A program made the translations under genes and the position numbers. Source: Shimia biformata (GTDB lineage: Bacteria; Pseudomonadota; Alphaproteobacteria; Rhodobacterales; Rhodobacteraceae). From it: 64,000 nucleotides of DNA. The stretch lies in NCBI RefSeq assembly GCF_016888515.1, contig NZ_JAFEJK010000001.1, forward strand, positions 2,575,475-2,639,474. The letters are read 5' to 3'. Within the stretch, counting starts at the first letter, position 1. Every line of letters starts with the position of its first letter. The notes under the pieces were generated by a model. The model had not been told where the DNA came from. It ran no database searches and saw only the letters and a list, made by a program, of their open reading frames with translations. Below are positions 1 through 59,482 of this stretch, one piece after another.

Positions 1-1301
1 TAGTCGCCGATCACACTGTCGGTCGCGTCCGCCAAGTCATCGCCCACATCTTCAAGTACGTCCGCGGTGGTCTCATCCTCGACCTGGGCGGCGGCCACAC
101 TCGGGGCGGCCGTGATGATGGAGATCAGTGCGGCGGAGCCGAACCGCTCGTCAAAGCGGGTATCGACGAAGCCAGTGACACCCGAACGGCCCAACTCGTC
201 TCCCCCGAAGGCGCTTATCTGGACGGTCTGGTTGTTTGGCAGGATGATCCGGTCCCAGGCGATGGTGACTCGTTTCTGGGCGATCTCGATGCCAGAGCGG
301 TAGCGCCCGACCAGGCGCGAGCCGCGCGGGATCAGGAGCCGTGAGCCGTCATAGCTGAAGACGTCTTCGGAGATGATGGCACTGGTCTGCCCGGGAAGCG
401 AGCTGTCGAGTGCGGTCTCCATCACGGCCTGGATCATCGTGCCCTGGATCACGGTGTTCGAGGGGTTGGCGATGACCTCGGCTTGTGTGATGGCGCTCGG
501 CAACGCGCCGTTCAGCACGAAATCCGTCACCTCGCCGAAGGTGCGCTCGGTAAGTTCTGTCTCGCCCGCATTGGCGCCGCCCGTTCCGCCGAAGGCGATG
601 ACGGGGGAGGAAATCCGCCGTTCCTGGAAGGCACGCTCCTCCTCGGCCCGACGTTGCAGCTCGGCCAGCCGCCGTGCTTCCTCCTCGCGGGCAAGGCGCT
701 CCAACTCGCGCGCACGCAATTCCTCATCGGTGGGTCCGAGCGGGGCGGGTGCCGGCTTGTTGGCCTCCAACCGCGCGAGGTCCAGGTCCATACGCAGCTG
801 TTGCAGCTCCCGATCTCGTTTGGCGAGTTCGGCCTGAAATTGTTCCTGAGCATTCTCGGAGGCGTCCTGTAGGGCGGCGATCCGTGCGGTCAGCGCATCG
901 ATCGCCTCGGCTGCCGCGCTATCCGCCCTGGCGTCGGTGTCCGGCGCGTCGCGCAGCTCCTCGATCTGGGCCTGGAGTGCGGCGATCTGCGCCAGAAGTT
1001 CGGCGTTGGGTTCTGGTTCGACGAGAACGATCTCGGGTTCCGGGGCGGGCGGCGGCACGAAGGGTTCGATCTCTCCGAACCCGTCACCCTCGGTTTGGAA
1101 CTCGTCCGGGGTGGCCGTCGGCAGGGCGACCTCTTCCTCCGGGCCCGAAAACAGCAAGAGGACCAAGCCGCCCGCCAGGATGAGCCCTGCGAGGAGGAGG
1201 GCGAGGAGCGGTGAGCGGCGTTTCGGGGCGGGTCCGTGGCGCGGATTGCCCCGTTCGAGCGCGGCGAGGCGCTGTTCGAGATCGGTGTTATTGTCACTCA
1301 T
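1..1301 (-). CDS. virB10: VirB10 (TrbI family), 3' end beyond window
   Basis: Inner/outer-membrane-spanning scaffold of the type IV secretion core complex. Reading from the ATG at 1301, about 433 residues are visible. They comprise a short cytoplasmic N-terminus, one transmembrane helix (about residues 31-51, LLALLLAGLILAGG), a Pro/Glu-rich periplasmic stretch, a charged coiled-coil region (about 100-225), and the conserved TrbI beta-barrel with GTMIQAVMETALDSSLPG, EDVFSYDGSRLLIPRGSRL and GRSGVTGFVDTRFDERFG. The C-terminus runs off the left edge. The start overlaps the virB9 stop as ATGA, so translation is probably coupled. Family assignment is very secure. Confidence 0.95.
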   Translation of the reverse strand, partial: MSDNNTDLEQRLAALERGNPRHGPAPKRRSPLLALLLAGLILAGGLVLLLFSGPEEEVALPTATPDEFQTEGDGFGEIEPFVPPPAPEPEIVLVEPEPNAELLAQIAALQAQIEELRDAPDTDARADSAAAEAIDALTARIAALQDASENAQEQFQAELAKRDRELQQLRMDLDLARLEANKPAPAPLGPTDEELRARELERLAREEEARRLAELQRRAEEERAFQERRISSPVIAFGGTGGANAGETELTERTFGEVTDFVLNGALPSAITQAEVIANPSNTVIQGTMIQAVMETALDSSLPGQTSAIISEDVFSYDGSRLLIPRGSRLVGRYRSGIEIAQKRVTIAWDRIILPNNQTVQISAFGGDELGRSGVTGFVDTRFDERFGSAALISIITAAPSVAAAQVEDETTADVLEDVGDDLADATDSVIGD

Positions 1302-2089
1302 GAGGCGGCCTCCGCGGGCGGCGTCGCCTCGATACAGACCACGTCCTCGCCCAGACGCAGCACCCATTGGCGCCCCACGCCCGAGACACGGATCACACCG
1401 TCTTCGACCGCGCCCGTGTTCACCGTGCGCTCGCGCCCGTTCGTGTAACGGAAGATCGCCGGGACGGGTGCGTTTCGAGGGAAGGCGAAATAGGTGAAGG
1501 TGCCGTCGTCCCAGACCCGGGTCGGCGTGAACTCCGTCCGTGCGCTTGCCCCGAAATTGGTGTTCGGTGCGGCGCGCGCGATGGCGTTGGAAGGGCGGCG
1601 ATTGTCTTCGGGGTAGCGGAACTGCACGACATAGAAGGTCGGACTCGAGACCTCGTTCACGTTGAAATAGTAGCTCCGTCTGTTGGTGTAGACGGTCACG
1701 TTGGTATGGACTCCGCGCGCGACGGGTTTAATCGCAAAGGCCCGCCCGCCGGGCACGCCGTCGATCTCAAACCCTTCCGTGTCGCCGGCGATGATTGAGC
1801 GGATGCTCTCGCCGTCGCCGAACTCGATGGTCGTGACATGGGTCAGGGAAACGTTCAGTCTGTAGACTTGTCCTTCCTGATAGGAGGCGACCCGCACGCG
1901 GTGGTCGTTGGGTCCCCCGCGCGGGATCGCCTCGGCTGACGCGTGGGACGCAAACAGTGAGACCATCAAAATGGCCGCGTGGAACGCCCGGGCGTGTCCG
2001 GTGTGTTTCGCATGGCTATTGCACTGCCATGTCTCGCGCATTTGGGGCGCTGGCAAGGAATTCTCTGACTTATTGTTCCGGAAACGCAC
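1298..2089 (-). CDS. virB9: VirB9 type IV secretion protein
   Basis: Periplasmic/outer-membrane core-complex subunit that pairs with VirB7-type lipoproteins and VirB10. The protein is 263 aa from a GTG directly after the virB8 stop, with GGAG about nine bases upstream. A hydrophobic segment ending in ASHASA at about residue 52 looks like a signal peptide, so an internal ATG at 2041 would give a more usual N-terminus. The mature part has the VirB9/CagX pattern: an N-terminal beta domain with SVRVASY-like and FGDGE motifs, then a C-terminal domain with TRVWDDGTFTYFAFP and GRQWVLRLGEDVVCIE. The start codon is uncertain; the family is not. Confidence 0.93.
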   Translation of the reverse strand: MRFRNNKSENSLPAPQMRETWQCNSHAKHTGHARAFHAAILMVSLFASHASAEAIPRGGPNDHRVRVASYQEGQVYRLNVSLTHVTTIEFGDGESIRSIIAGDTEGFEIDGVPGGRAFAIKPVARGVHTNVTVYTNRRSYYFNVNEVSSPTFYVVQFRYPEDNRRPSNAIARAAPNTNFGASARTEFTPTRVWDDGTFTYFAFPRNAPVPAIFRYTNGRERTVNTGAVEDGVIRVSGVGRQWVLRLGEDVVCIEATPPAEAAS

Positions 2090-2761
2090 TTACTGGTTCT
2101 CCAATCTGTCCGAGCGGATCGCGTATTCGACGACGGTGAAGCCAAACGGGTTGGTCCAAACCTGGTCGATGGAGCGGCTCTCCTCGGGGCGGAACTCGAA
2201 GAGGAGCGTCGCGGTGAAGAGGCCCGCCTGAACCCCCTGAATCGAAGTCAGGCGCTTGCGAAGCCGCACCGTGGCTCGGTTGTTGCCGATCAGGTTGATG
2301 CTGAGGATCTCGACGTCGAGGCGGGCGTTGGGTCCATAGACGGTCGGGGGATAGTCGGCATTGGCCGAGTTCCAGATCTGGCGCAGTGAGGCCCCTGCTG
2401 CACGGTCCGAACGGCGCAACACGCTGCGGATGCGCACGTCATTGTCGAGCTGGTTGTAGACCTCGCGGTCGGTCACGTAGCGGAAGACCTCCGCCTCGAT
2501 AATGGCGCGGTTCTCGGTGACGGTGGTGGCACCGACGGTGGCTTCGGGGAGGGCGAAGCCGGTGGCGGGATCGTAAGGTACCACTACAGGGGGCGGATCG
2601 ACATCGAGGATGGCCACGGCGGCCGCGCTGAGGCAGCCCAGGATGCCAAAGCCAAGACCGAAGAGTCCCAGGCGCTGCCAGAGCCGTTCCCGTCTCAGCG
2701 CGCCGTAGACCAGTTCCTCCTCGATGATGGCGGTTTCTTCGTCCAAAAAATCAGTCCTCAA
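2090..2761 (-). CDS. virB8: VirB8 type IV secretion protein
   Basis: Bitopic inner-membrane assembly factor of the VirB channel. It is 223 aa with a short cytoplasmic N-terminus, one transmembrane helix (about 33-52, LGLFGLGFGILGCLSAAAVA) and a periplasmic NTF2-like domain containing REVYNQLDNDVRIRSVL and the C-terminal NPFGFTVVEYAIRSD, which is typical of VirB8. The only sensible start is TTG, overlapping the preceding virB5 stop (TTGA), which implies translational coupling. Length is normal for the family. It lies between virB5 and virB9; a virB6 gene, which usually precedes virB8, is absent at this point. Confidence 0.93.
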   Translation of the reverse strand: MRTDFLDEETAIIEEELVYGALRRERLWQRLGLFGLGFGILGCLSAAAVAILDVDPPPVVVPYDPATGFALPEATVGATTVTENRAIIEAEVFRYVTDREVYNQLDNDVRIRSVLRRSDRAAGASLRQIWNSANADYPPTVYGPNARLDVEILSINLIGNNRATVRLRKRLTSIQGVQAGLFTATLLFEFRPEESRSIDQVWTNPFGFTVVEYAIRSDRLENQ

Positions 2762-3585
2762 TCCGCATTCAGTTCCGGGAGCGTGAACTCCATGAAGCGT
2801 TGTTCTTCGGCGATGGTGGCGGCATCAATCACGCCGCCGGTGCCATCCCCTACGGTCTGGATCGCTTCGAGCTGCCACATGGCGACGAGCGCGATGGCGA
2901 GCTCTGCCGTCACCCGCGTGTTGAGATCGACGCTCTCCTTGATCTCGTCCATGTCGTCGATGAGCCCGACGAGCCGGTCGACGCGTTCGAGCGACTGCCC
3001 GGCATCCTCGTAGCTGTTCTGGGCCGCGGCCGAGACCAGCGCGCCGGTCGTGGCTTGCGTTGCCACGCGCTCGGCCCCGGGATTGCCGCTGCGGGCCATT
3101 TCCGAGAGCGTGTCCTCGTCGAAACCGAGATCGGCCAGAACTCTATCCATCTGGGTTTCGATCTCGCTGGCACCGGATCCGGTGAGCCCGGAGAAATCCC
3201 CCGTCTTGATCGCCTCAATGGTGGCGATGATATCGCCGAACTCCTGGTCCAGGAGACCGTTCAGCTCGTCCTCCATCTGTGTCCGGATGATCTCGGGCAA
3301 CTCTGCGAGACGCGTTAACGCCTCATACGTTCGTTGTAGCTCGGCGAGCTGCTCCGTAAGCGTGGCAAGCTGTTCGCGGAGCTGCACGAGTTGCTCGTTT
3401 TGCAGGATCTCGTCCTCGATCATCTGCCGGAGCTGCTGGATGTTTTGGGCGATGTTTTGGGTATCCACGACCGGCACGCCCTGGGCCAGGACGGGGGGAC
3501 TGGCCACGAAAGGCGAGCAAAGCGCCAAGACGCTGGCCAGGGTCAACGTGCGAAGTGGTGCTGAAATGAACATTTTGCGGGGCAT
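2758..3585 (-). CDS. virB5: VirB5-like secreted coiled-coil protein
   Basis: Minor-pilus/adhesin-type subunit of the secretion system. The 275-aa protein starts at ATG 3585, which shares its A with the upstream stop (TGATG), and GGAGG lies 11 bases before it. It has a signal peptide ending near ASPPVLAQ, then a long heptad-rich alpha-helical region starting QGVPVVDTQNIAQNIQQLRQ, and a C-terminal tail NLNTRVTAEL-like ... EEQRFMEFTLPELNAD. The N-terminal and C-terminal blocks match those flanking the lytic domain of the gene immediately upstream. Assignment rests on domain layout and operon position. Confidence 0.85.
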   Translation of the reverse strand: MPRKMFISAPLRTLTLASVLALCSPFVASPPVLAQGVPVVDTQNIAQNIQQLRQMIEDEILQNEQLVQLREQLATLTEQLAELQRTYEALTRLAELPEIIRTQMEDELNGLLDQEFGDIIATIEAIKTGDFSGLTGSGASEIETQMDRVLADLGFDEDTLSEMARSGNPGAERVATQATTGALVSAAAQNSYEDAGQSLERVDRLVGLIDDMDEIKESVDLNTRVTAELAIALVAMWQLEAIQTVGDGTGGVIDAATIAEEQRFMEFTLPELNAD

Positions 3586-4739
3586 CAATCCAGATCCTCC
3601 AATGTGAACTCCATGAATTCGTTCTCGGCCATACGGGCCGCGGCCTGGGCCAGCTGGGCGGCGCTGAGCGGTTGGGTCCGTGCGGCTTTCAGGCGAATGC
3701 GCGCGGCCATCAGCCGGACGAGTTCGGCGCGGGCATAGGTGTTGAGCGCCATGCTCTCCTGGAGGTCCTGGGTCGCGCCGATCCGGGTGACGATGTCCTG
3801 GATGCGCAGGGCGGCCTGCCGGATGGCGGCGGGGGAATTGCTGCCGTAGAAGGCGGCACCGAACCCGCTGAGCGAGAGATGGGCGTTGGCGAGAAGCGCG
3901 GGGTCGATCGTGCCGAGCGCCTCGATGCCACCGATCCGCGCGAGGTAGAGATTGTAGCGTTCGGGGATGACCCTGACGTAGTGCTGGGTCTCCTTGAAGG
4001 GCGGTACGCCTCCATATTCGAACACACGGCCAGGACCCGCGTTATAGGCCGCGAGCGCGTTGACGACGTTGCCGTCGAAGGTGTTGAGCTGGGCCGCGAG
4101 GTAGCGCGCGCCGCCTTCGACCTGCAGGTAGGGGCTGTCATAATATTCCGGGTTGATCCCGAGATCGCTCGCGGTGCCCGGCATGATCTGGGTGAGGCCG
4201 AAGGCGCCCACGGGCGAGCGTGCGCCGATGGAGAAGCGGCTCTCCTGCCAGATGAGCGCCTGCAGGAGGGCGCGCCATTGCACGACGGAAAGACCGGCCC
4301 GCCCGACCCCGGGCCGCCCGTGGGTCTCCTGGGCGACCCGGATGATCAGCTGCTCGATGTTTTCTGCCGCATCTCCGAACATACCCGCGCCGCCCGGATT
4401 GGGATCGATGTCGCCCGAGCCGTAGACCGCCGCTGCGGACTGGTCCGGATCGCCGCTGCCGCCCTCGAGGTCTGCGACCATGCCCGGCAGTCCCTGGCCG
4501 CCGAAGCTCGTCTGCGCGTCGAGGATCGCGCGCAGCGTGGCGAGCTGTTCCCGTTCGATCTCGGTCAGCAACTCTTCGACGGCGAGCTTCTCACGCTGGA
4601 CGGCGAGGTCGGCGTCCCGGTCGCCCGTCTCGACGATATCGCGGGCCGTCAGCCCGGAATCGTTGGTGGGAACGCCCTGGGCGAGCGCGGCCGCCGGCAG
4701 GAGAGCCGCCAGGAGGATATGTGCGACCCTAGACCTCAA
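3585..4739 (-). CDS. Chimeric VirB5-like protein with internal lytic transglycosylase (SLT) domain
   Basis: Predicted periplasmic peptidoglycan-cleaving component of the secretion system, 384 aa. A signal peptide (1-20) is followed by a VirB5-like N-terminal block (21-75: AQGVPTNDSGLTARDIVETG). The SLT/goose-lysozyme-type domain (about 145-275) has the presumed catalytic Glu166 in WQESRF, then GAFGLTQIMPGTA and AAYNAGPGRV. A VirB5-like C-terminal block (303-384) ends MAENEFMEFTLEDLD. The two flanks align with the N- and C-termini of the adjacent VirB5. The start is TTG 4739, overlapping the small lipoprotein gene by 11 bases. A second, ordinary VirB1 lies at the head of the operon, so this is not simply the missing VirB1. 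Confidence 0.85.
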   Translation of the reverse strand: MRSRVAHILLAALLPAAALAQGVPTNDSGLTARDIVETGDRDADLAVQREKLAVEELLTEIEREQLATLRAILDAQTSFGGQGLPGMVADLEGGSGDPDQSAAAVYGSGDIDPNPGGAGMFGDAAENIEQLIIRVAQETHGRPGVGRAGLSVVQWRALLQALIWQESRFSIGARSPVGAFGLTQIMPGTASDLGINPEYYDSPYLQVEGGARYLAAQLNTFDGNVVNALAAYNAGPGRVFEYGGVPPFKETQHYVRVIPERYNLYLARIGGIEALGTIDPALLANAHLSLSGFGAAFYGSNSPAAIRQAALRIQDIVTRIGATQDLQESMALNTYARAELVRLMAARIRLKAARTQPLSAAQLAQAAARMAENEFMEFTLEDLD

Positions 4740-4896
4740 CGCCGTCTTCCGGGTTTCCGATGGGTGTGAAGATGCAATCCGGCTCTTCCCGGTCGAGCGA
4801 GGCGCGGAAGGCGAAACAGTTGGCCTGAGGTTCGCGGTATTCGGCGCAGGAAGAGAGAACGCCGAGTGCGGCGAGGAGGATGAGGGGTCGGATCAT
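4729..4896 (-). CDS. Small lipoprotein in T4SS operon (VirB7-like position)
   Basis: A 55-aa protein with a textbook lipoprotein signal: MIRPLILLAALGVLSSC, with the acylated Cys at 17. The short mature part is charged and has two further Cys residues (NCFAFR, PDCIF). ATG 4896 overlaps the virB4 stop (ATGA), and the end overlaps the next gene by 11 bases, so it is locked into the operon. VirB7 of Agrobacterium is likewise a tiny lipoprotein that disulfide-bonds VirB9, and the paired Cys residues would fit such a role. Sequence similarity to VirB7 cannot be judged at this length, so the role is an inference. Confidence 0.75.
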   Translation of the reverse strand: MIRPLILLAALGVLSSCAEYREPQANCFAFRASLDREEPDCIFTPIGNPEDGVEV

Positions 4897-7268
4897 GAGA
4901 GCCTCCAGAAATCAGGACGGTCGCGGTAGTCGGGGCCGACGAGGGCTTCGCCCTTCTCCATGCCGCCGAGGATGGTGAGGAGAGGACCGAGGGCGGAGAG
5001 GTCGGCATCGACCACCACGGAGCCGCTGTCGTCGCGGATGAGGGCAAGGCGGCTGTCGCTGCCGGTGTTCAGGAGCACGTCGAGTTCCTTCTCGAAGAGG
5101 TTGAGCATCGCGTAGTCGGACGCATGAGCGCGGATGTTGGGGAGCAGGATCTGCGTCGGCACCGCCTCGACGATGGTTTTGCCGGTGCGCGTGCGTTCGA
5201 GCTGGCTCGCATATTGTGTCATCATCACCGCGACCGTGTTCTGTTTCCGGGCGGTCACCAGCCAGTTCGAGAGCCGTTCGGCGAAGTACGGGTTGTCGAG
5301 CGCCTTCCATGCCTCGTCGATCACGATGATGGTGGGGCGACGGTCCTCGATCTCGCGCTCGATGCGGCGGAAGAGATAGGAAAGGACTGCCATCCGTTCC
5401 TTCTCGCTTTCACTGTCGAGAATACCGGTCAGGTCAAACCCCACGACATCGCCATCAAGGGAGAAGGTGTCCTCGAGGCTCTGGCCGAAGATCCAGCCGT
5501 AGCGGCCGTCCTCCGTCCATTCGAGGAGCCGTTGATGCAGGTCGCCATTGTCGTCGGTCGAGACAAAGAGCGAGGCGAAGTCCTTCCAGTTCCGCAAGGC
5601 CGGGTTGGTGGCTGTGGCGTTCTGGCGGACCACCTCCTGGATGCGGTTGGTCTGGGCCGGGGTCAGGGGCTTGTCAGAGCGATAGAGGAGCGAGGCGAGC
5701 CAATCCGAGAGCCAGGCGGTGCCGCGCTCATCGATTTCGGTCCAGAGCGGGTTGAGACCGGTCGTCTGTCCCGCCTTGATCGAGGCGTAGCGCCCACCAT
5801 TGGCGCGGACGGCCATCTCCATCCCGAGCCGATAATCAAAGACGAAGATGCGTGTGCCGACGCGCCGGGCCTGAGTCATCAGGAAGGCTGAGAGGACGGA
5901 TTTGCCGGAACCGGGTCGGCCCAAGATCAAGGTATGCCCGCTGGTCGGCTCTTTCTCTGGCGAGCCCTGTTCGTGATAGGAGAAACGATAGGCGCTCTGT
6001 TCCGGCGTCGGGAGGAGCGTGATCTCCTGGCCCCAGGGCAGTTGGTGTTTTTCCTTCCCGCGCTGCGTGCGATGAAGTGCTGCGAAATCCGCAAAGTTGC
6101 GGTTGGTGACCGCACTGGCGCGCACCCGTTTCGGCTGATTGCCGGGATGCTGGCTAAAATAATGCGACTTTGCCGCCATCCGCTCGCCGATCATCTTCAC
6201 GCCCTCGGCGGCCGCGGCGTTCACGATCTCGGCCCCGAGGGTTTGCAACTCGTCGAGGCTGTCGCAGAAGACGGTCACCACCATGTGGTGCTCGCCGAAG
6301 CTCTGGCGTTTGGCCTCAAGATCATCATGCGCGATGTCGAGTGCTTCTAGGAGCGACAGAGCGGCGTCTTGCGAGGCTTGCATCTGGCGCTTCTGGCGTT
6401 TGATCCGGCCCGCCATCAGGTTCGAATTGATCGGTGTGAAGGAATGGGTGACGATCATGTCGACCGGCAGGTTCAGCATGTCGAACATGGTGCAGGTGGT
6501 ACCTTCGGCATATTCGCCGATGGTGAAGCTCTTGCCGAAGCGATGGCCGACCACGCCGTCCGAGAGCTCGAAGTGATCTTCCAGAAACGTCACCCGTGTG
6601 TTGGCAACGTTGTAGGCCAAAAACCCGTAGCGGTTTGCGGGAAAGAGCGGCAGTTCGCGGCCGGTGTTGAGTGCGCCGAGGAACCCAGCCAACTCGCCAG
6701 AAGCTGCCGAAAGGATGCGGGGCTTGACTTCCGCGAGGCCAGAGGTGAAGACCCCGACCGCCTCCTTGAGGCGTCTAATCCGTTTCGCGGTCTCTTCCTT
6801 GAAACGGTCCGGTGCGGAACGGTTCACAAAACCAAGGAAACTCCTGGGCGGCGGGCGGTGGATGATGGTGAGTGTGAGGGTCTTGTCCCGGAGACCGGCC
6901 GAGGCGAGTTTTGTGCGCCAGGCATCATCCACCGCCGCCGCGAAGCCGTCGCCCCGGACCGGGAGCAGGTCCGGGGTGATCGACTTCGAGACCTTATGCA
7001 CGTAGTAGCTGAACTCCGGCCCGAGCTGCGCGATGATCCGGGCGAAGAGCGCCGTGACCTTGTCGAGGTAGGCATCGTCTGTGGTGTAGCTGTTCACCCC
7101 ACTCAGGCGGATGCATTGGAAGAGTTCGTTGACGCGCGTGCGGACTGTCTGGTCATCGACGAGGCTGACATAGGGCAGCATATGCGCGAGGCGTTTCTCG
7201 CGGGCATACCAGTCCGGCATGAGGGTGCGTTCATCGACGGTCTCGCCTAGGGCTTCACTATGGCGCAT
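4893..7268 (-). CDS. virB4: VirB4 secretion ATPase
   Basis: Cytoplasmic/inner-membrane ATPase that energises pilus assembly and transport. The 791-aa length is normal for the family. The N-terminal CagE/TrbE/VirB domain covers about residues 1-400. The C-terminal RecA-like domain has Walker A GRPGSGKS (450-457), Walker B TIIVIDEAWK (about 646-655) and MMTQYASQLERT, a VirB4-typical motif after Walker B. ATG 7268 overlaps the virB3 end by 11 bases. Gene order B3-B4 is canonical. No frameshifts seen. Confidence 0.96.
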   Translation of the reverse strand: MRHSEALGETVDERTLMPDWYAREKRLAHMLPYVSLVDDQTVRTRVNELFQCIRLSGVNSYTTDDAYLDKVTALFARIIAQLGPEFSYYVHKVSKSITPDLLPVRGDGFAAAVDDAWRTKLASAGLRDKTLTLTIIHRPPPRSFLGFVNRSAPDRFKEETAKRIRRLKEAVGVFTSGLAEVKPRILSAASGELAGFLGALNTGRELPLFPANRYGFLAYNVANTRVTFLEDHFELSDGVVGHRFGKSFTIGEYAEGTTCTMFDMLNLPVDMIVTHSFTPINSNLMAGRIKRQKRQMQASQDAALSLLEALDIAHDDLEAKRQSFGEHHMVVTVFCDSLDELQTLGAEIVNAAAAEGVKMIGERMAAKSHYFSQHPGNQPKRVRASAVTNRNFADFAALHRTQRGKEKHQLPWGQEITLLPTPEQSAYRFSYHEQGSPEKEPTSGHTLILGRPGSGKSVLSAFLMTQARRVGTRIFVFDYRLGMEMAVRANGGRYASIKAGQTTGLNPLWTEIDERGTAWLSDWLASLLYRSDKPLTPAQTNRIQEVVRQNATATNPALRNWKDFASLFVSTDDNGDLHQRLLEWTEDGRYGWIFGQSLEDTFSLDGDVVGFDLTGILDSESEKERMAVLSYLFRRIEREIEDRRPTIIVIDEAWKALDNPYFAERLSNWLVTARKQNTVAVMMTQYASQLERTRTGKTIVEAVPTQILLPNIRAHASDYAMLNLFEKELDVLLNTGSDSRLALIRDDSGSVVVDADLSALGPLLTILGGMEKGEALVGPDYRDRPDFWRLS

Positions 7269-7536
7269 AGCTGTCGCCCCCGTGGATGGACCGGTTCCGC
7301 GTCGGCGGTGTTTCCTGGAGCGCTGTCATCATCACATCGATGAAGCGGGGGTCCCAATCAGCCGCTTTCCAGAGAACCGGATAGAGGATCGCCGCGATCG
7401 CAAGCACCAGCATATGCTGCACCCAAACGAAGAGCAGCACCGACCCAAAGAGCCAGACCATGGCATACATGATCGGCAGGCCGAGGAGCTTCGGCGGACG
7501 GACAAGGCCCAGGAATAGCGGCGATCGTTCGGCCAC
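7258..7536 (-). CDS. virB3: VirB3 inner-membrane protein
   Basis: Small inner-membrane partner of VirB4, 92 aa. The N-terminal motif SPLFLGLVRPPKLLGLP and two consecutive hydrophobic helices (about 19-53) are the standard VirB3 layout. The start is GTG 7536, 12 bases after the virB2 stop with a G-rich stretch upstream; the end overlaps virB4. Identification rests on the N-terminal motif, size and position between virB2 and virB4. Confidence 0.9.
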   Translation of the reverse strand: MAERSPLFLGLVRPPKLLGLPIMYAMVWLFGSVLLFVWVQHMLVLAIAAILYPVLWKAADWDPRFIDVMMTALQETPPTRNRSIHGGDSYAP

Positions 7537-7548
7537 GTTCGCCCCCGG

Positions 7549-7839
7549 TTACGAGCCAAACACTGCGGCAACGATCGTCGGAGCTGCGGCCACGCCGGCG
7601 ATGCCGACCAGCACCCAGAGGGCTTGGCGCAGATCGATGATGTTGAAGAACCAGCTGAGGAACACGCCGAGGACCGCGAGGGTGGCGATGACGACGCCAA
7701 GCGGTCCGGTCAGCGCGTCCACGATGCCCTGTAATAAGCTCTGAATCGGTGAGAGGTCGATGCTCTGGGCCAGGGCCGGCTCTGCCGCAACGATGAGGAG
7801 AGCGGCAAGGGTGATCAGGGATTTCGTCAATGGCTTCAT
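7549..7839 (-). CDS. virB2: VirB2 pilin (TrbC/VirB2 family)
   Basis: Major pilus subunit precursor, 96 aa. A long signal peptide ends [13 protein letters not shown], followed by a short amphipathic helix ([18 protein letters not shown]) and two transmembrane helices separated by a small polar loop (FFNIIDLRQ). ATG 7839 was chosen because GGAAGGAG sits just upstream and the frame beyond it is a shadow of virB1. Its start overlaps the virB1 stop as ATGA. Size and hydropathy match VirB2. Confidence 0.9.
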
Positions 7840-8573
7840 GGGGACGCTCCTTCCAGCCGGTTGAAGACGGCCAGCACCCGCTGGACGTGGTTTTGGGTTT
7901 CTCGAAACGGTGGAATGCCGGAATGCTCGCGCACGGCGTCGGGCCCGGCATTGTAGGCGGCGAGCGCGAGGCGCGCGTCGCCGAACTCGGCCAGCATCAA
8001 GGCGAGATAACGGGCCGATCCGTCGAGGTTCTGCTTCCAATCATGAGGGTCGACGCTAAGTGCGCGGGCCGTATCGGGCATCAACTGCCCGAGACCGACC
8101 GCCCCGACATGGGACACGGCGTGCGGATTGTACGCACTCTCGATCTCGATATTGGCGCGATAGAGATGGAGCCAGTCCGTGACGGTGATATCCGCCGCTC
8201 GGAGCCCAGGGTGGCTCGCGTAGCGCAGTCCGGTCTCCTCAATCGCGGCGAGGATATCCGGGTGTGGCTTTGGCGCGCGAGGGGTCACCGCCGCGACACG
8301 TACCCCTTCACGTCGCTCAGTGCGGCGCTCCTCGCCCAAAATGCGCAACCCATCCGAAGCCGAGCCAACGCCGACCCCGTCATTGTAGTTGCGCGCGAAC
8401 CGTTCCTGGGGGCGTGAGGGCGAAAGAGAACCGTCGCCCGCCATCACCAGCACCATGTCTGCCGATGCCGGAAAGCCCAGGGAGGAAAAGAAAAGGGCGC
8501 TAAGCCCGGCTGGCAGCCATCTCTTCGCTGGAAAGCTTGTGAACCGTCCGCTTGCCCTCTTCCAGAGGCACAT
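7836..8573 (-). CDS. virB1: VirB1 lytic transglycosylase
   Basis: Periplasmic muramidase expected to open the peptidoglycan for the secretion channel. From ATG 8573 the protein is 245 aa with a basic N-region, a hydrophobic core and the cleavage-like FPASA. A variable linker precedes the SLT domain (about 130-240), with presumed catalytic Glu145 (IEIESAYNP), [13 protein letters not shown] and [11 protein letters not shown]. The start is a judgement: later ATGs would remove the signal peptide, so it overlaps the upstream gene by 74 bases. Its stop overlaps virB2. Confidence 0.85.
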
Positions 8574-8856
8574 CGGCGTGCGAGAACCCGATCCCTTGCA
8601 GGAAGGAGATGACGCCGGTGACGGTCTTGATCTCGCGGATCTTGATGTCGTTGCGCGAGGTTCGGGTCCGGGCCGTGACCAGAAGTTTCTCGATCCCGTC
8701 GTCGCTGACAGCGCGCATAATCCAGACCCCATGCCAGTTGGGGCCTTTCTTGAAGGCGTCTTCTTTACAGACAACTTCGACGCGATAGCCGCTGGCGACC
8801 AGATCGCGGAATCTGGGTTCGGTGACCACATTCGGGGCTTCTTTTTCTAGGTCCAT
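8500..8856 (-). CDS. Conserved-looking hypothetical at head of virB operon
   Basis: A 118-aa cytoplasmic protein, [16 protein letters not shown]..., with no recognised domain, signal peptide or membrane segment. It has a mixed alpha/beta composition, with [26 protein letters not shown] as its most distinctive part. It overlaps virB1 and is first in the operon. ATG 8856 is preferred over a TTG at 8964 because an inverted repeat that looks like an operator (8920-8935) lies inside the longer frame; GTG 8859 is also possible. Function unknown; operon position suggests a role linked to secretion or its control. Confidence 0.6.
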
Positions 8857-19053: not shown

Positions 19054-19067
19054 CTAACGCCTGTTAG
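19054..19067. promoter_or_regulatory. CTAAC-N4-GTTAG operator in tetR/carboxylase promoter
   Basis: Palindrome CTAACGCCTGTTAG. On the minus strand a promoter fits: TTGAGT, 17 bases, TTAGTT, with the operator covering the spacer and -10. It is one of six main copies of the same motif in the window. Confidence 0.7.
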
Positions 19068-21301: not shown

Positions 21302-21315
21302 CTACCATTTGTTAG
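21302..21315. promoter_or_regulatory. CTAACA-type operator, thiolase promoter
   Basis: CTACCATTTGTTAG differs from the consensus CTAACANNTGTTAG at one base. It lies 55 bases upstream of the thiolase ATG in a divergent 253-base intergenic region. Confidence 0.6.
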
Positions 21316-28490: not shown

Positions 28491-28518
28491 TTGATCTATT
28501 TTCTAACATATGTTTGAT
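28491..28518. promoter_or_regulatory. CTAACA-type operator within plus-strand promoter
   Basis: Operator CTAACATATGTTTG (28503-28516) differs from consensus at one base. It lies inside a promoter: TTGATC (28491-28496), 16 bases, TTTGAT (28513-28518), serving the acyl-CoA dehydrogenase operon. The divergent atuA operon starts 78 bases away, so one site may control both. Confidence 0.68.
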
Positions 28519-32658: not shown

Positions 32659-33141
32659 ATGTCAGACATCACCCAAAAGAAGATGGAGCAAATCGCGCAG
32701 ATGTGGAATGCGCGCGGCAAGGGTCTGATAACGCATATGGCGCTTGAGATCGAAGAGGTCTCGACCGAACGTGTTCGGGTTCGGATGCCGTTCAATCCGG
32801 ACTTTTGCGTCGATGCGGAACAATCGCTGCTCCACGGTGGTATCCTGACGGCACTTCTGGACAGTGTCTTTGGACTGGCGAACTTTGTTGCCATCGAAGG
32901 CGTCAGTACCATGGCCACTCTTGACCTCAGAGTTGATTACCTGCGCCCGGCCCGTTCGCGCGCGGATGTCATCGTTCAAGCGCATTGTTTTCGCAAGACC
33001 CGCCACATCGCCTTCAATTCCGGCAGCGTCTGGTTCGCGGGCCATGAGGATGCTGAAATAGCCAGGGGAACCGCCTCGTTTGCATTGACGCGCGGCGAAA
33101 CCAGCCTGTTTGACGCAATGACAAAAGGAAAAACCTCGTGA
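32659..33141 (+). CDS. PaaI-type hotdog thioesterase, first of tandem pair
   Basis: A 160-aa hotdog-fold protein with LLHGGILTALLDSVFGLANF (helix containing the presumed catalytic Asp) and TLDLRVDYLRPARSRADVIV. It likely hydrolyses acyl-CoA thioesters released or stalled in the pathway. ATG 32659 is preceded by AAAGGA. It ends in TGATG overlapping the next thioesterase. Confidence 0.85.
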   Translation: MSDITQKKMEQIAQMWNARGKGLITHMALEIEEVSTERVRVRMPFNPDFCVDAEQSLLHGGILTALLDSVFGLANFVAIEGVSTMATLDLRVDYLRPARSRADVIVQAHCFRKTRHIAFNSGSVWFAGHEDAEIARGTASFALTRGETSLFDAMTKGKTS

Positions 33142-33542
33142 TGGACGTGCAAACTGTCAATGCCAATGTTTCCCGGGTGCCGTTCTTCCGATTTCTCAAC
33201 TTTGAGGTCAGAAGTCTAGACAGTCTCCATGCTGAGGCGGAGATGACCTTTGATGACCCCCATATCGGTAACCCGATCATGGAGTACTACCATGGCGGCA
33301 TAATCGCGAGTTTTATGGAGGCCACTGCCGCCATCGCGGTACAGCCCGATTTCGCCGACGTTCCGGCCAAGCCGATCAACCTGACCGTCGATTACCTCAG
33401 ACCCGGTGTGAAGGGACCGCTTTTTGCGCGCGCTAACGTCACGCGCAAAGGCAAGCGGATGGCAAGCGTCAGCGTGCTCAGCTGGCAGACGGATCGGGAA
33501 AAGGCGGTTGCCGAAGGGCTGTATCACTTCCTTCTGGTCTGA
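33141..33542 (+). CDS. PaaI-type hotdog thioesterase, second of tandem pair
   Basis: A 133-aa hotdog-fold protein. The active-site helix reads YYHGGIIASFMEATAAIAV, with Glu where the neighbour has Asp, then NLTVDYLRPGVKGPLFARA. ATG 33141 overlaps the preceding stop. Its 3' end overlaps the convergent tandem TetR gene by 19 bases. The pair may form a heteromer or differ in chain-length preference. Confidence 0.82.
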   Translation: MDVQTVNANVSRVPFFRFLNFEVRSLDSLHAEAEMTFDDPHIGNPIMEYYHGGIIASFMEATAAIAVQPDFADVPAKPINLTVDYLRPGVKGPLFARANVTRKGKRMASVSVLSWQTDREKAVAEGLYHFLLV

Positions 33543-34924
33543 CCGGGGCAACCGCTTTCAGGGCTACCTTGTCCTGTGGACGGGGCCGCTTCCCGGTTAC
33601 AAATGCCTTCCAGTAACAGATAGATGAGCATGCTGGAGAATTCAGGCAGTGATAGATATCCTTCCACTCCTGCCTTGTTCGGGTCGAACCATTCCACCGT
33701 CCAGTTTAAGGCACCCAACATCACCTGGCGCAAGGGGACGATCTTGATATCCGACCGTATGGCACCGTCGTCCTGAGCTTCACGGAGTATCCGATCCCAG
33801 AGTTTTCCATACTCATGGCGAATACCCCTGTGCCTCTCCCTGAAATGATTGGGGAGCATTCCATAGCTTCTGATATTCGCCGAGGTGAATTCACTTGCCT
33901 TGAAGAGGAAATCCAGGTGCGCCCAGATTGCAGTCGCTATCTTGGCGTGATGATCGTACGGGGCATCGAATTTCCGAACGGCGGCTTCGACACCTGATAG
34001 CAAGTCCCTCAGTCCGGCGTTTAGAACTTCGTCAACGATCGCTTCTTTGGAGTTGAAATGGTAATAGACGCTGCCCGCTTTCATGTCCGCTTCTTCCGCG
34101 ATCTTTCTCAGCGTGGTCGCCTTGTAGCCATTGTCCCTCAGAACGCGCGCTGCGGCCTTTAGAATTTCTGCACGGGTCTTAGCCGCCTTGCTGTCGGGAT
34201 CCGGGGTTTTGGCGGGAGTGGCGGGGCACAGCTTCAAGCCTTCGGTACCCGCCTTGCGATGTGGACACATTCCGTCAAGTATCAGCTTACTCATTCGTTC
34301 CGCGAGGATGCGCACCGGATACTTGTCGACATCGTACCATTCTACGGTCCAGTTCATGGCACTCAGGATGAACTGGCGGATCACAGCAGTGGATATGTCG
34401 CTTCGAAGGTGGCCGGCGCGTTTGGCGTCATTCAGGAATTTGCCCCAGGCCCCTGCATATGATGCACGCAATTCGCGATGCGGGGCGCGTGTTTCGTCCG
34501 ACAACATCGGATAGTTCCGAATATTGGCTGACGTGAAGTCGCTGTCGGTCAAGAGATAGGTCAGATGTGTTTCAATCAGCAGTCCGAAAGTCTTGCGAAA
34601 ATCCTCCGAACTTGTCGGTGCCGACCGAACAATTTCACTGACCGCCTGATATAGTTGACGGACGCCAAGATCGAGAACTTCGCTCAGAATCTGGTCCTTG
34701 GATTGAAAATGATAATAAATGCTGCCGGCCTCAATGCCAGCTTCCTGCGCGATGTCGCGCATAGTCGTTGCGTGATAGCCTTCATACCGAAAAAGTCGCG
34801 CGGCCGCAGCGAGTATGGCTTCGCGGGTCCTCTCCGACTTGCTTAGATCGTCATTCACTATCCTGGTATCTTCAATCTGTCGTGCCATCCAGTGTCGATA
34901 CTTGTCGTAGATGAGGCTGTCCAT
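33524..34924 (-). CDS. Tandem (single-chain) TetR-TetR regulator
   Basis: A 466-aa protein containing two complete TetR units. Unit 1 has HTH ATTMRDIAQEAGIEAGSIYYHF (about residues 52-77) and ligand domain block MNWTVEWYDVDKYPV. A linker (about 219-245, KLCPATPAKTPDPDSKAAK) leads to unit 2, with HTH ATTLRKIAEEADMKAGSVYYHF (about 268-293) and LNWTVEWFDPNKAGV. Ordinary TetR proteins are about 200 aa and dimerise. ATG 34924 is preferred because a perfect 22-bp palindrome lies just upstream of it. Likely an acyl-CoA-responsive repressor of this region. Confidence 0.88.
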   Translation of the reverse strand: MDSLIYDKYRHWMARQIEDTRIVNDDLSKSERTREAILAAAARLFRYEGYHATTMRDIAQEAGIEAGSIYYHFQSKDQILSEVLDLGVRQLYQAVSEIVRSAPTSSEDFRKTFGLLIETHLTYLLTDSDFTSANIRNYPMLSDETRAPHRELRASYAGAWGKFLNDAKRAGHLRSDISTAVIRQFILSAMNWTVEWYDVDKYPVRILAERMSKLILDGMCPHRKAGTEGLKLCPATPAKTPDPDSKAAKTRAEILKAAARVLRDNGYKATTLRKIAEEADMKAGSVYYHFNSKEAIVDEVLNAGLRDLLSGVEAAVRKFDAPYDHHAKIATAIWAHLDFLFKASEFTSANIRSYGMLPNHFRERHRGIRHEYGKLWDRILREAQDDGAIRSDIKIVPLRQVMLGALNWTVEWFDPNKAGVEGYLSLPEFSSMLIYLLLEGICNREAAPSTGQGSPESGCPGQTRRK

Positions 34925-34930
34925 TGCAAT

Positions 34931-34952
34931 TAATCTAACAACTGTTAGATTA
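34931..34952. promoter_or_regulatory. Perfect 22-bp CTAACA-type operator between tandem tetR and SDR
   Basis: TAATCTAACA-AC-TGTTAGATTA, ten bases each side with no mismatch; it is the best copy of the motif. It begins six bases before the tetR ATG and 61 bases before the divergent SDR gene, whose promoter -10 (TTAGAT) would lie in the right arm. Confidence 0.78.
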
Positions 34953-35013
34953 CATCGGAGAGAGTGTCGAATCAAGCTCTTTTCAAGGTGCAACGGAAGA
35001 GGAGGACCTCCAC

Positions 35014-35775
35014 ATGCGAGGGTTGAGTGGAAAACGGGTCGTCGTGACCGGCGGTGGGAGCGGCATTGGCCGAGCGGTTTGCGAACGGTTCGGCGCGGAG
35101 GGTGCCGAAGTCGCCGTTTTCGATCTGAACAAAGCCGGAGCGGATGAAACCGCCAAACTAATCACTGAATCCGGCGGAAAAGCGACTGCATTTCAGGCGG
35201 ATATCACCGATCGCGCACAGGTCGACAAGGCCGTCGCCGAGTTCGAATCCGGCGGACCGATTGATGTGCTGGTGAACAACGCGGGCTGGGACGTGATCAA
35301 ACCGTTCCTCGACACCGATCCCGACCTTTGGAAAAAGGTCATCGACATAAATCTTTACGGTCCGCTGAATATGCATCACGCGGTGCTTCCGGGCATGGTC
35401 AAGAACGGCGGCGGCCGTGTGGTCAACATCGCGTCCGACGCCGGACGCGTCGGATCATCCGGCGAAGCCGTGTATTCGGCCTGCAAGGGTGGCATCATCT
35501 CGTTCACCAAAACCGTAGCGCGCGAACTGGCGCGTAAAGGTATTCAATTGAATGCGGTCGCCCCCGGCCCGACCGATACGCCGCTGTTCGCTCAGGTTGC
35601 CGAGGGCGAGGCCGGTCAAAAGATCGCCGAAGGTCTCAAGCGGGCGATTCCGATGAAGCGTCTTGCGCAGCCGACGGATTACCCTGGCATCATCTGCTTC
35701 CTGTCGTCGGACGACGCAGGGTTCATTACCGGCCAGGTGATTTCGGTTTCGGGCGGCCTGTCCATGCACGGTTAA
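35014..35775 (+). CDS. SDR dehydrogenase (BadH / 2-hydroxycyclohexanecarboxyl-CoA dehydrogenase-like)
   Basis: A 253-aa SDR with VTGGGSGIGRAVCERFG, LVNNAGWDVIKPF, a catalytic Ser in NIASDAGRVGSS and YSACKGGIISFTK (YxxxK present), ending ITGQVISVSGGLSMHG. The NNAGWD..KPF and GPTDTPLF pattern resembles BadH of cyclohexanecarboxylate degradation and related 3-hydroxyacyl-CoA dehydrogenases. ATG 35014 follows GGAGGACC. It is a single gene transcribed away from the tandem tetR and closed by a strong hairpin. Confidence 0.87.
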   Translation: MRGLSGKRVVVTGGGSGIGRAVCERFGAEGAEVAVFDLNKAGADETAKLITESGGKATAFQADITDRAQVDKAVAEFESGGPIDVLVNNAGWDVIKPFLDTDPDLWKKVIDINLYGPLNMHHAVLPGMVKNGGGRVVNIASDAGRVGSSGEAVYSACKGGIISFTKTVARELARKGIQLNAVAPGPTDTPLFAQVAEGEAGQKIAEGLKRAIPMKRLAQPTDYPGIICFLSSDDAGFITGQVISVSGGLSMHG

Positions 35776-46487: not shown

Positions 46488-46515
46488 TTGATATACATTC
46501 TAACATTTGTTAGAT
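46488..46515. promoter_or_regulatory. CTAACA-type operator in divergent FadH / dehydrogenase promoter
   Basis: Perfect operator CTAACATTTGTTAG (46500-46513) inside a promoter TTGATA (46488-46493), 16 bases, TTAGAT (46510-46515) that drives the plus-strand operon. It lies 38 bases from the FadH-like start on the other side. Confidence 0.75.
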
Positions 46516-59453: not shown

Positions 59454-59482
59454 TTGACCAATTTTTCTAACATCTGTTAGGC
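59454..59482 (+). promoter_or_regulatory. CTAACA-type operator in transporter-operon promoter
   Basis: Perfect operator CTAACATCTGTTAG (59467-59480) within promoter TTGACC (59454-59459), 17 bases, TTAGGC (59477-59482). It precedes the ABC transporter/ligase genes. Confidence 0.75.

Follow-up and report, generated by a model that had tools for sequence, protein, structure and literature searches.

To our knowledge, Mce3R, whose target site is asymmetric, is the sole double TetR regulator with a solved structure. This protein (Rv1963c) from Mycobacterium tuberculosis, resolved by cryo-EM (9b7y), is reported to fold as a TetR within one chain, held by an intramolecular four-helix bundle, and to form in addition a dimer of chains by homodimerisation through helix 15; the double-TFR repressors described comprise, besides Mce3R, 204 putative ones in actinomycetes (PMC11667970). 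Engineered proteins of comparable design, namely scTetR and sc-rtTA, carry two TetR units placed head to tail through a flexible peptide linker, and are reported to fold intramolecularly, acting as the equivalent of a dimer (PMC1797012). With regard to gene context, AtuR/RdmA are TetR repressors of the Pseudomonas acyclic terpene/DSF clusters, which display atu-type genes and inverted-repeat operators near the promoter (PMC9973270).

In this work, we characterized a tandem TetR-TetR protein of Shimia biformata, encoded in a stretch of 64,000 nucleotides (hereafter the window, meaning that whole stretch). The protein resembles Mce3R in that a single chain of about 400 aa holds both TetR units, in adjoining lipid-related genes, and in its predicted regulation of those genes and of itself. 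However, it is only 16% identical to Mce3R in the structural alignment; the Mce3R operator is non-palindromic, whereas the site found here is a conserved palindrome, TCTAACANNTGTTAGA; and the units of Mce3R have been assigned to distinct TFR subgroups, whereas the tandem halves are 46% identical to each other over 200 residues. Assignment to an Mce3R orthologue group was rejected, since the closest sequence kinship is not with Mce3R: in PDB sequence searches, single-unit TetR chains (4mo7, 2ibd, 3vpr) outscored it against the tandem protein. scTetR and sc-rtTA share the two-unit layout, but they are artificial, with identical halves and a response to tetracycline, while the tandem TetR is natural and its halves have diverged. 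AtuR/RdmA are single-unit proteins whose reported operator half, AGCAAGCGCTTGG, is unrelated to the core found here, CTAACANNTGTTAG (PMC9973270), and identity with AtuR was discarded on both counts.

Literature text searches on tandem TetR returned nothing natural; it was a PDB sequence search that led to Mce3R. Given Mce3R, the putative actinomycete double TFRs (PMC11667970) and the engineered single-chain TetR (PMC1797012), the natural single-chain double TetR is a kind already known, and the novelty implied for it in a first-pass annotation of this DNA was overstated. What sets the present case apart is a proteobacterial family whose halves, apparently diverged duplicates, share a recognition helix, with a palindromic operator as opposed to the asymmetric Mce3R site, a predicted multi-promoter regulon on mobile DNA, and an operator class common to a single-unit paralogue. 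The family provides a second, proteobacterial case, in which the ancestral palindrome is apparently still read by the fused pair, beside a single-unit cousin. This makes the gain from fusion testable, be it locked dimerisation, no mixing with operator-sharing paralogues, or two-ligand control. An operator sequence and a target regulon are thereby at hand for experiments, with possible use as a biosensor.

We consider it probable that the protein is a natural single-chain double TFR with intramolecular pairing, which reads the palindromes of an acyl-CoA regulon and is predicted to repress it. Within this explanation, the sequences themselves establish that there are two units, that both are conserved, that the linker length is fixed, and that a family of operator sites exists and is located at promoters.

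The tandem gene and its orthologues

A single open frame of 466 codons encodes two complete TetR units (Table 1), as the first-pass annotation had stated. In Pfam, TetR_N (PF00440) matched the protein twice (E 1.1e-37, 127.9 bits versus a cut-off of 24), and so did TetR_C_24. The protein shows the N-terminal TetR_N HTH and the all-helical units with C-terminal ligand/dimerisation domain of the TetR/AcrR family and, as in double TFRs of the Mce3R type, one polypeptide holds two complete TetR units. Its product likely starts at M13 (codon 34886-34888), a start that the first-pass annotation had missed, and comprises 454 aa, since upstream of residue 13 the frame of several orthologues is interrupted by a stop codon or shows ATA for ATG, and most align from the ATG at that residue; the conserved stretch at the first ATG may be part of the divergent SDR promoter, not coding. 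The NCBIfam name ScbR_bind_reg (NF041196) was not adopted: the score of 159.7 bits exceeds the curated cut-off of 150, but it is made up of two matched stretches, so that a cut-off set for a one-unit whole protein was passed by summing two TetR units. Such sums may lead the automated annotation of double TetRs astray. At its 3' end, the tandem gene overlaps by 19 bp (33524-33542) that of a convergent hotdog thioesterase gene (33138-33542, plus strand).

Table 1. Coordinates of the tandem gene, its parts, the single-unit paralogue and the operator sites in the window.
Feature	Position	Strand	Evidence or context
Tandem TetR-TetR gene, 466-aa frame	33524..34924	-	Open frame, Pfam domains
Tandem gene from the likelier start M13 (454 aa)	33524..34888	-	Conserved start; upstream stops/ATA in some orthologues
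First HTH (TetR_N, unit 1)	34676..34816	-	Pfam PF00440, residues 37-83; orthologue identity 0.76, pN/pS 0.13
Unit 1 ligand/dimerisation domain (helices 4-9)	34268..34699	-	pN/pS 0.16
Linker, 26 aa (25-27 in 31/31 proteins), sequence unconstrained	34190..34267	-	Identity 0.24, pN/pS 0.71
Second HTH (TetR_N, unit 2)	34049..34189	-	pN/pS 0.12
Unit 2 ligand/dimerisation domain	33602..34048	-	pN/pS 0.14
Single-unit TetR paralogue, 209 aa	18398..19027	-	39% identical to unit 2, 34% to unit 1
Operator TAATCTAACA-AC-TGTTAGATTA	34931..34952	.	Between tandem gene and divergent SDR gene (35014-35775, +)
Operator CTAACATTTGTTAG	46500..46513	.	Divergent promoter: oxidoreductase operon (-) / acyl-CoA dehydrogenase operon (+)
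Operator CTAACATCTGTTAG	59467..59480	.	Before ABC-transporter operon (+)
Operator, 1 mismatch, CTAACATATGTTTG	28503..28516	.	Between enoyl-CoA hydratase (-) and acyl-CoA dehydrogenase (+) operons; equivalent in L139, L140
Operator, 1 mismatch, CTACCATTTGTTAG	21302..21315	.	Between thiolase/lipid-transfer gene (-) and hexapeptide-repeat gene (+); equivalent in L140
Operator, 1 mismatch, CTAACGCCTGTTAG	19054..19067	.	Upstream of single-unit TetR paralogue; exact site before its L140 orthologue

From genome assemblies, 80 related loci (54-100% identical) were fetched, mostly from Rhodobacterales and otherwise from Rhizobiales-type genera, Bradyrhizobium, Acidocella and Marinobacter; the tandem TetR is a conserved, mostly marine bacterial family. 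For the alignment, 31 representative orthologues from independent genomes were used (51-91% identical to the window protein), and both TetR units were kept in all 31. Further, 157 plasmid records contain a match spanning at least 80% of the tandem protein. Thus, the identical fusion, for which a search had been proposed, does occur in similar gene clusters elsewhere, and its genuineness is borne out by the representative orthologues and plasmid records alike; that resequencing might resolve it into two separate genes is contradicted by fused orthologues in independent genomes and plasmids, which rule out an artefact of this kind. More generally, the probability that we are dealing with a sequencing or assembly artefact, or with a decaying fusion in which one half is dead, is negligible: the two-unit architecture recurs in many independent assemblies and complete plasmids, and all four domains are constrained, with pN/pS values of 0.12-0.16.

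These values were computed over 39 moderately diverged orthologue pairs. Purifying selection acts on the two HTHs and on the two ligand domains alike, and their low pN/pS argues that both tandem halves are functional, whereas the tails (0.55-0.62) and the linker evolve more freely. The linker was present as first annotated, but its Pro/Lys-rich composition is not conserved; what is conserved is the length, within the same range in every one of the 31 proteins despite a mean identity of only 0.24, which argues for a tether of set length.

Of 395 genera in a sample of the family to which the window belongs, only about ten have the tandem form, and near-identical copies (98-100%) occur in different genera, so that its distribution across the sampled genomes is patchy and mobile. 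The presence in the window of the T4SS gene virB4 (4893-7268) is consistent with such mobility. Type IV secretion genes (1298-8831), including this VirB4-family ATPase, flank the acyl-CoA cluster, which is also carried on many Roseobacter-group plasmids; on both grounds, the cluster is probably cargo of a conjugative element.

Fold and pairing of the two units

The 454-residue chain was modelled by AlphaFold2 with 31 aligned sequences, with a mean pLDDT of 83.6 and a pTM of 0.81, and the predicted fold consists of nine main helices per TetR unit, with a further short helix in the second. Its best fold match in the PDB was Mce3R (9b7y), with both units aligned (Foldseek, TM 0.73 by target, 420 columns); superposition on this structure reached a VIA Z of 27.8 over 368 residues with an rmsd of 4.4, as compared to a Z of at most 18 for single-unit chains. 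The motifs NWTVEWYD and NWTVEWFD, which had been regarded as marks of the two ligand domains, are both present and map in the model to helix 8 of units 1 and 2 (helices 167-183 and 383-399). Since helix 8 is the dimerisation helix in TetR proteins, the motifs are more likely structural than markers of a ligand pocket.

According to the model, units 1 and 2 would pair via helices 8 and 9, in a four-helix bundle of the Mce3R type, by which one chain would become the equivalent of a TetR dimer, with two near-identical recognition helices (AGS[I/V]YYHF) set on one palindrome. A single TetR dimer would be expected to occupy a site of this size, with one palindrome at each promoter. The structure prediction that the first-pass annotation had proposed as a check thus yielded a two-unit fold matching Mce3R; as for pairing, a single-chain run can join the units only within the chain and compares no between-chain arrangement, so the intramolecular pairing is inferred rather than demonstrated.

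Two chains could otherwise associate symmetrically through like units (1 to 1, 2 to 2), giving one complex of two separate TetR dimers that would engage two operators simultaneously and could form DNA loops from promoter to promoter. The cluster does hold several identical palindromes, 11-25 kb apart, the symmetry of the recognition helices would allow either arrangement, and Mce3R chains dimerise further (PMC11667970). However, we regard symmetric pairing as unlikely, given that each promoter has a single good site, that the tandem chain matches the intramolecular fold of Mce3R, for which symmetric pairing was rejected in the Mce3R study, and that a fixed linker length suits pairing within one chain, the arrangement that we favour.

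The palindromic operator and its probable reader

The palindrome beside the tandem gene had been described as a perfect one of 22 bp; in fact, it consists of perfect 10-bp arms around a 2-nt non-palindromic centre, AC (20/22). Its position next to the gene is conserved, an operator site being located just before the tandem gene in 63 of 63 testable loci. Across 23 non-redundant orthologue upstream regions, the 16-bp core averages 1.86 bits per base versus 0.81 in the 60 bases upstream, and in 100 shuffles of the window no match to the palindrome was found with up to three mismatches. In the window, copies of the core CTAACANNTGTTAG lie at 34935, 46500 and 59467 (exact) and at 19054, 21302 and 28503 (one mismatch each), and these six sites lie outside the main coding genes, where operons start to one side or to both. 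In the whole genome, nine places match the core with at most one mismatch, all within 137 kb of one contig; the exact sites number five genome-wide versus 0.07 expected, and the chance of such clustering is about 2e-11. In two annotated plasmid loci, 8 of 8 operator sites are intergenic, where only 3.6% of the DNA is. Judging from sequence, the palindrome is therefore the operator of a multi-promoter regulon, which the first-pass annotation had missed.

The three sites beyond the window (2498046, 2501707 and 2517921; L137/L138, G000:C10 2490000-2525000) adjoin genes for a CaiB-type CoA-transferase, a thiolase-like protein, an acyl-CoA dehydrogenase and an ABC transporter, with which the regulon would comprise a second block of acyl-CoA genes.

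Going by the gene context and by what is known of the family, the tandem protein would repress its own gene and, via about eight further operator copies, a mobile acyl-CoA (Atu/Liu-like) degradation regulon. In the upstream alignment, two candidate promoters were recognized by eye, TTGATT-17-TATTCT for the tandem gene, which overlaps the operator, and TTGCAA-16-TAGAAT for the divergent SDR gene, which spans it; from this placement comes the suggestion, and only that, that one bound protein would block both promoters. A simple sigma-70 scan of 34860-35040 under a strict rule called no promoter.

The single-unit TetR paralogue may share these operator sites or compete for them. Together with its relatives (L090, L091 and others), it belongs to the same TetR_C_24 subfamily and has the same recognition helix and the CTAAC-N4-GTTAG operator class, but it consists of one unit, presumably acts as a homodimer, and falls in a clade separate from both tandem halves. 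This operator motif is also found near single-unit relatives in genomes where no tandem was found, and the operator class is thus probably older than the fusion. The palindromes could then be read mainly by the single-unit paralogue, with the tandem protein as modulator or competitor; the motif does stand before the single-unit gene and several of its relatives, tandem-free genomes included, and 9 of the 12 tandem genomes checked also hold a single-unit relative (42-100% identity). Such a division of roles is nonetheless quite improbable, for the operator abuts the tandem gene throughout the testable loci, and three genomes (G419, G420 and G421) have the tandem gene and lack a single-unit TetR orthologue (the top hits were the two halves of the tandem protein, at 36-39%, with a further hit at 33% in G419), yet each keeps five exact operator sites on the tandem-bearing contig. 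The retention of these sites in tandem-only genomes makes the tandem protein the likeliest reader of the palindrome, with competition possible where both regulators exist.

Candidate ligands and origin of the two halves

The genes of the cluster encode several acyl-CoA dehydrogenases, enoyl-CoA hydratases, SDRs, thioesterases and CoA ligases, along with HMG-CoA-lyase-like and citryl-CoA-lyase-like proteins, an AtuA-family protein and an ABC transporter, and include three biotin-carboxylase genes with carboxyltransferases. This set resembles a putative pathway for acyclic-terpene or branched-chain acyl-CoA degradation. Among the fold matches of the tandem protein are relatives that bind acyl-CoA, namely AibR with isovaleryl-CoA (5k7z) and FadR with stearoyl-CoA (3whc), which, together with the gene context, suggests by analogy an acyl-CoA as inducer; an intermediate of the pathway would probably release the protein from its operator.

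The purifying selection on both ligand domains indicates that both of them matter. The authors of the Mce3R study described one composite ligand-binding region, not two (PMC11667970). The AND/OR logic for two ligands that had been put forward for the tandem TetR is a doubtful hypothesis. Equally tentative is the idea that the chain corresponds to a heterodimer, in which non-identical ligand domains would sense different acyl-CoAs and combine at a palindrome shared with a homodimeric paralogue; if so, fusion would have turned a one-signal switch into a two-signal one with the DNA code unchanged.

In the trees, unit-1 sequences group together, as do unit-2 sequences, from which it follows that the fusion has been inherited as one piece. 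When long-branch relatives were left out, both halves together split from the single-unit proteins with a support of 100/98; this split and the identity between the halves led us to reject an origin from two unrelated TetR genes. Once more distant relatives were included, however, the best topology placed unit 2 nearer the single-unit proteins (90/76), and an AU test did not reject a tree in which the halves were held together (p 0.106). A single duplication-fusion, with a provisional root, is thus favoured as the putative origin.

Two further two-unit TetR proteins from the same bacterial class, 427 and 468 aa long and only distantly related (24-27% identical), were observed (L093:1411-2691 and L094:1198-2601), and double TetRs may be commoner in Alphaproteobacteria than described.
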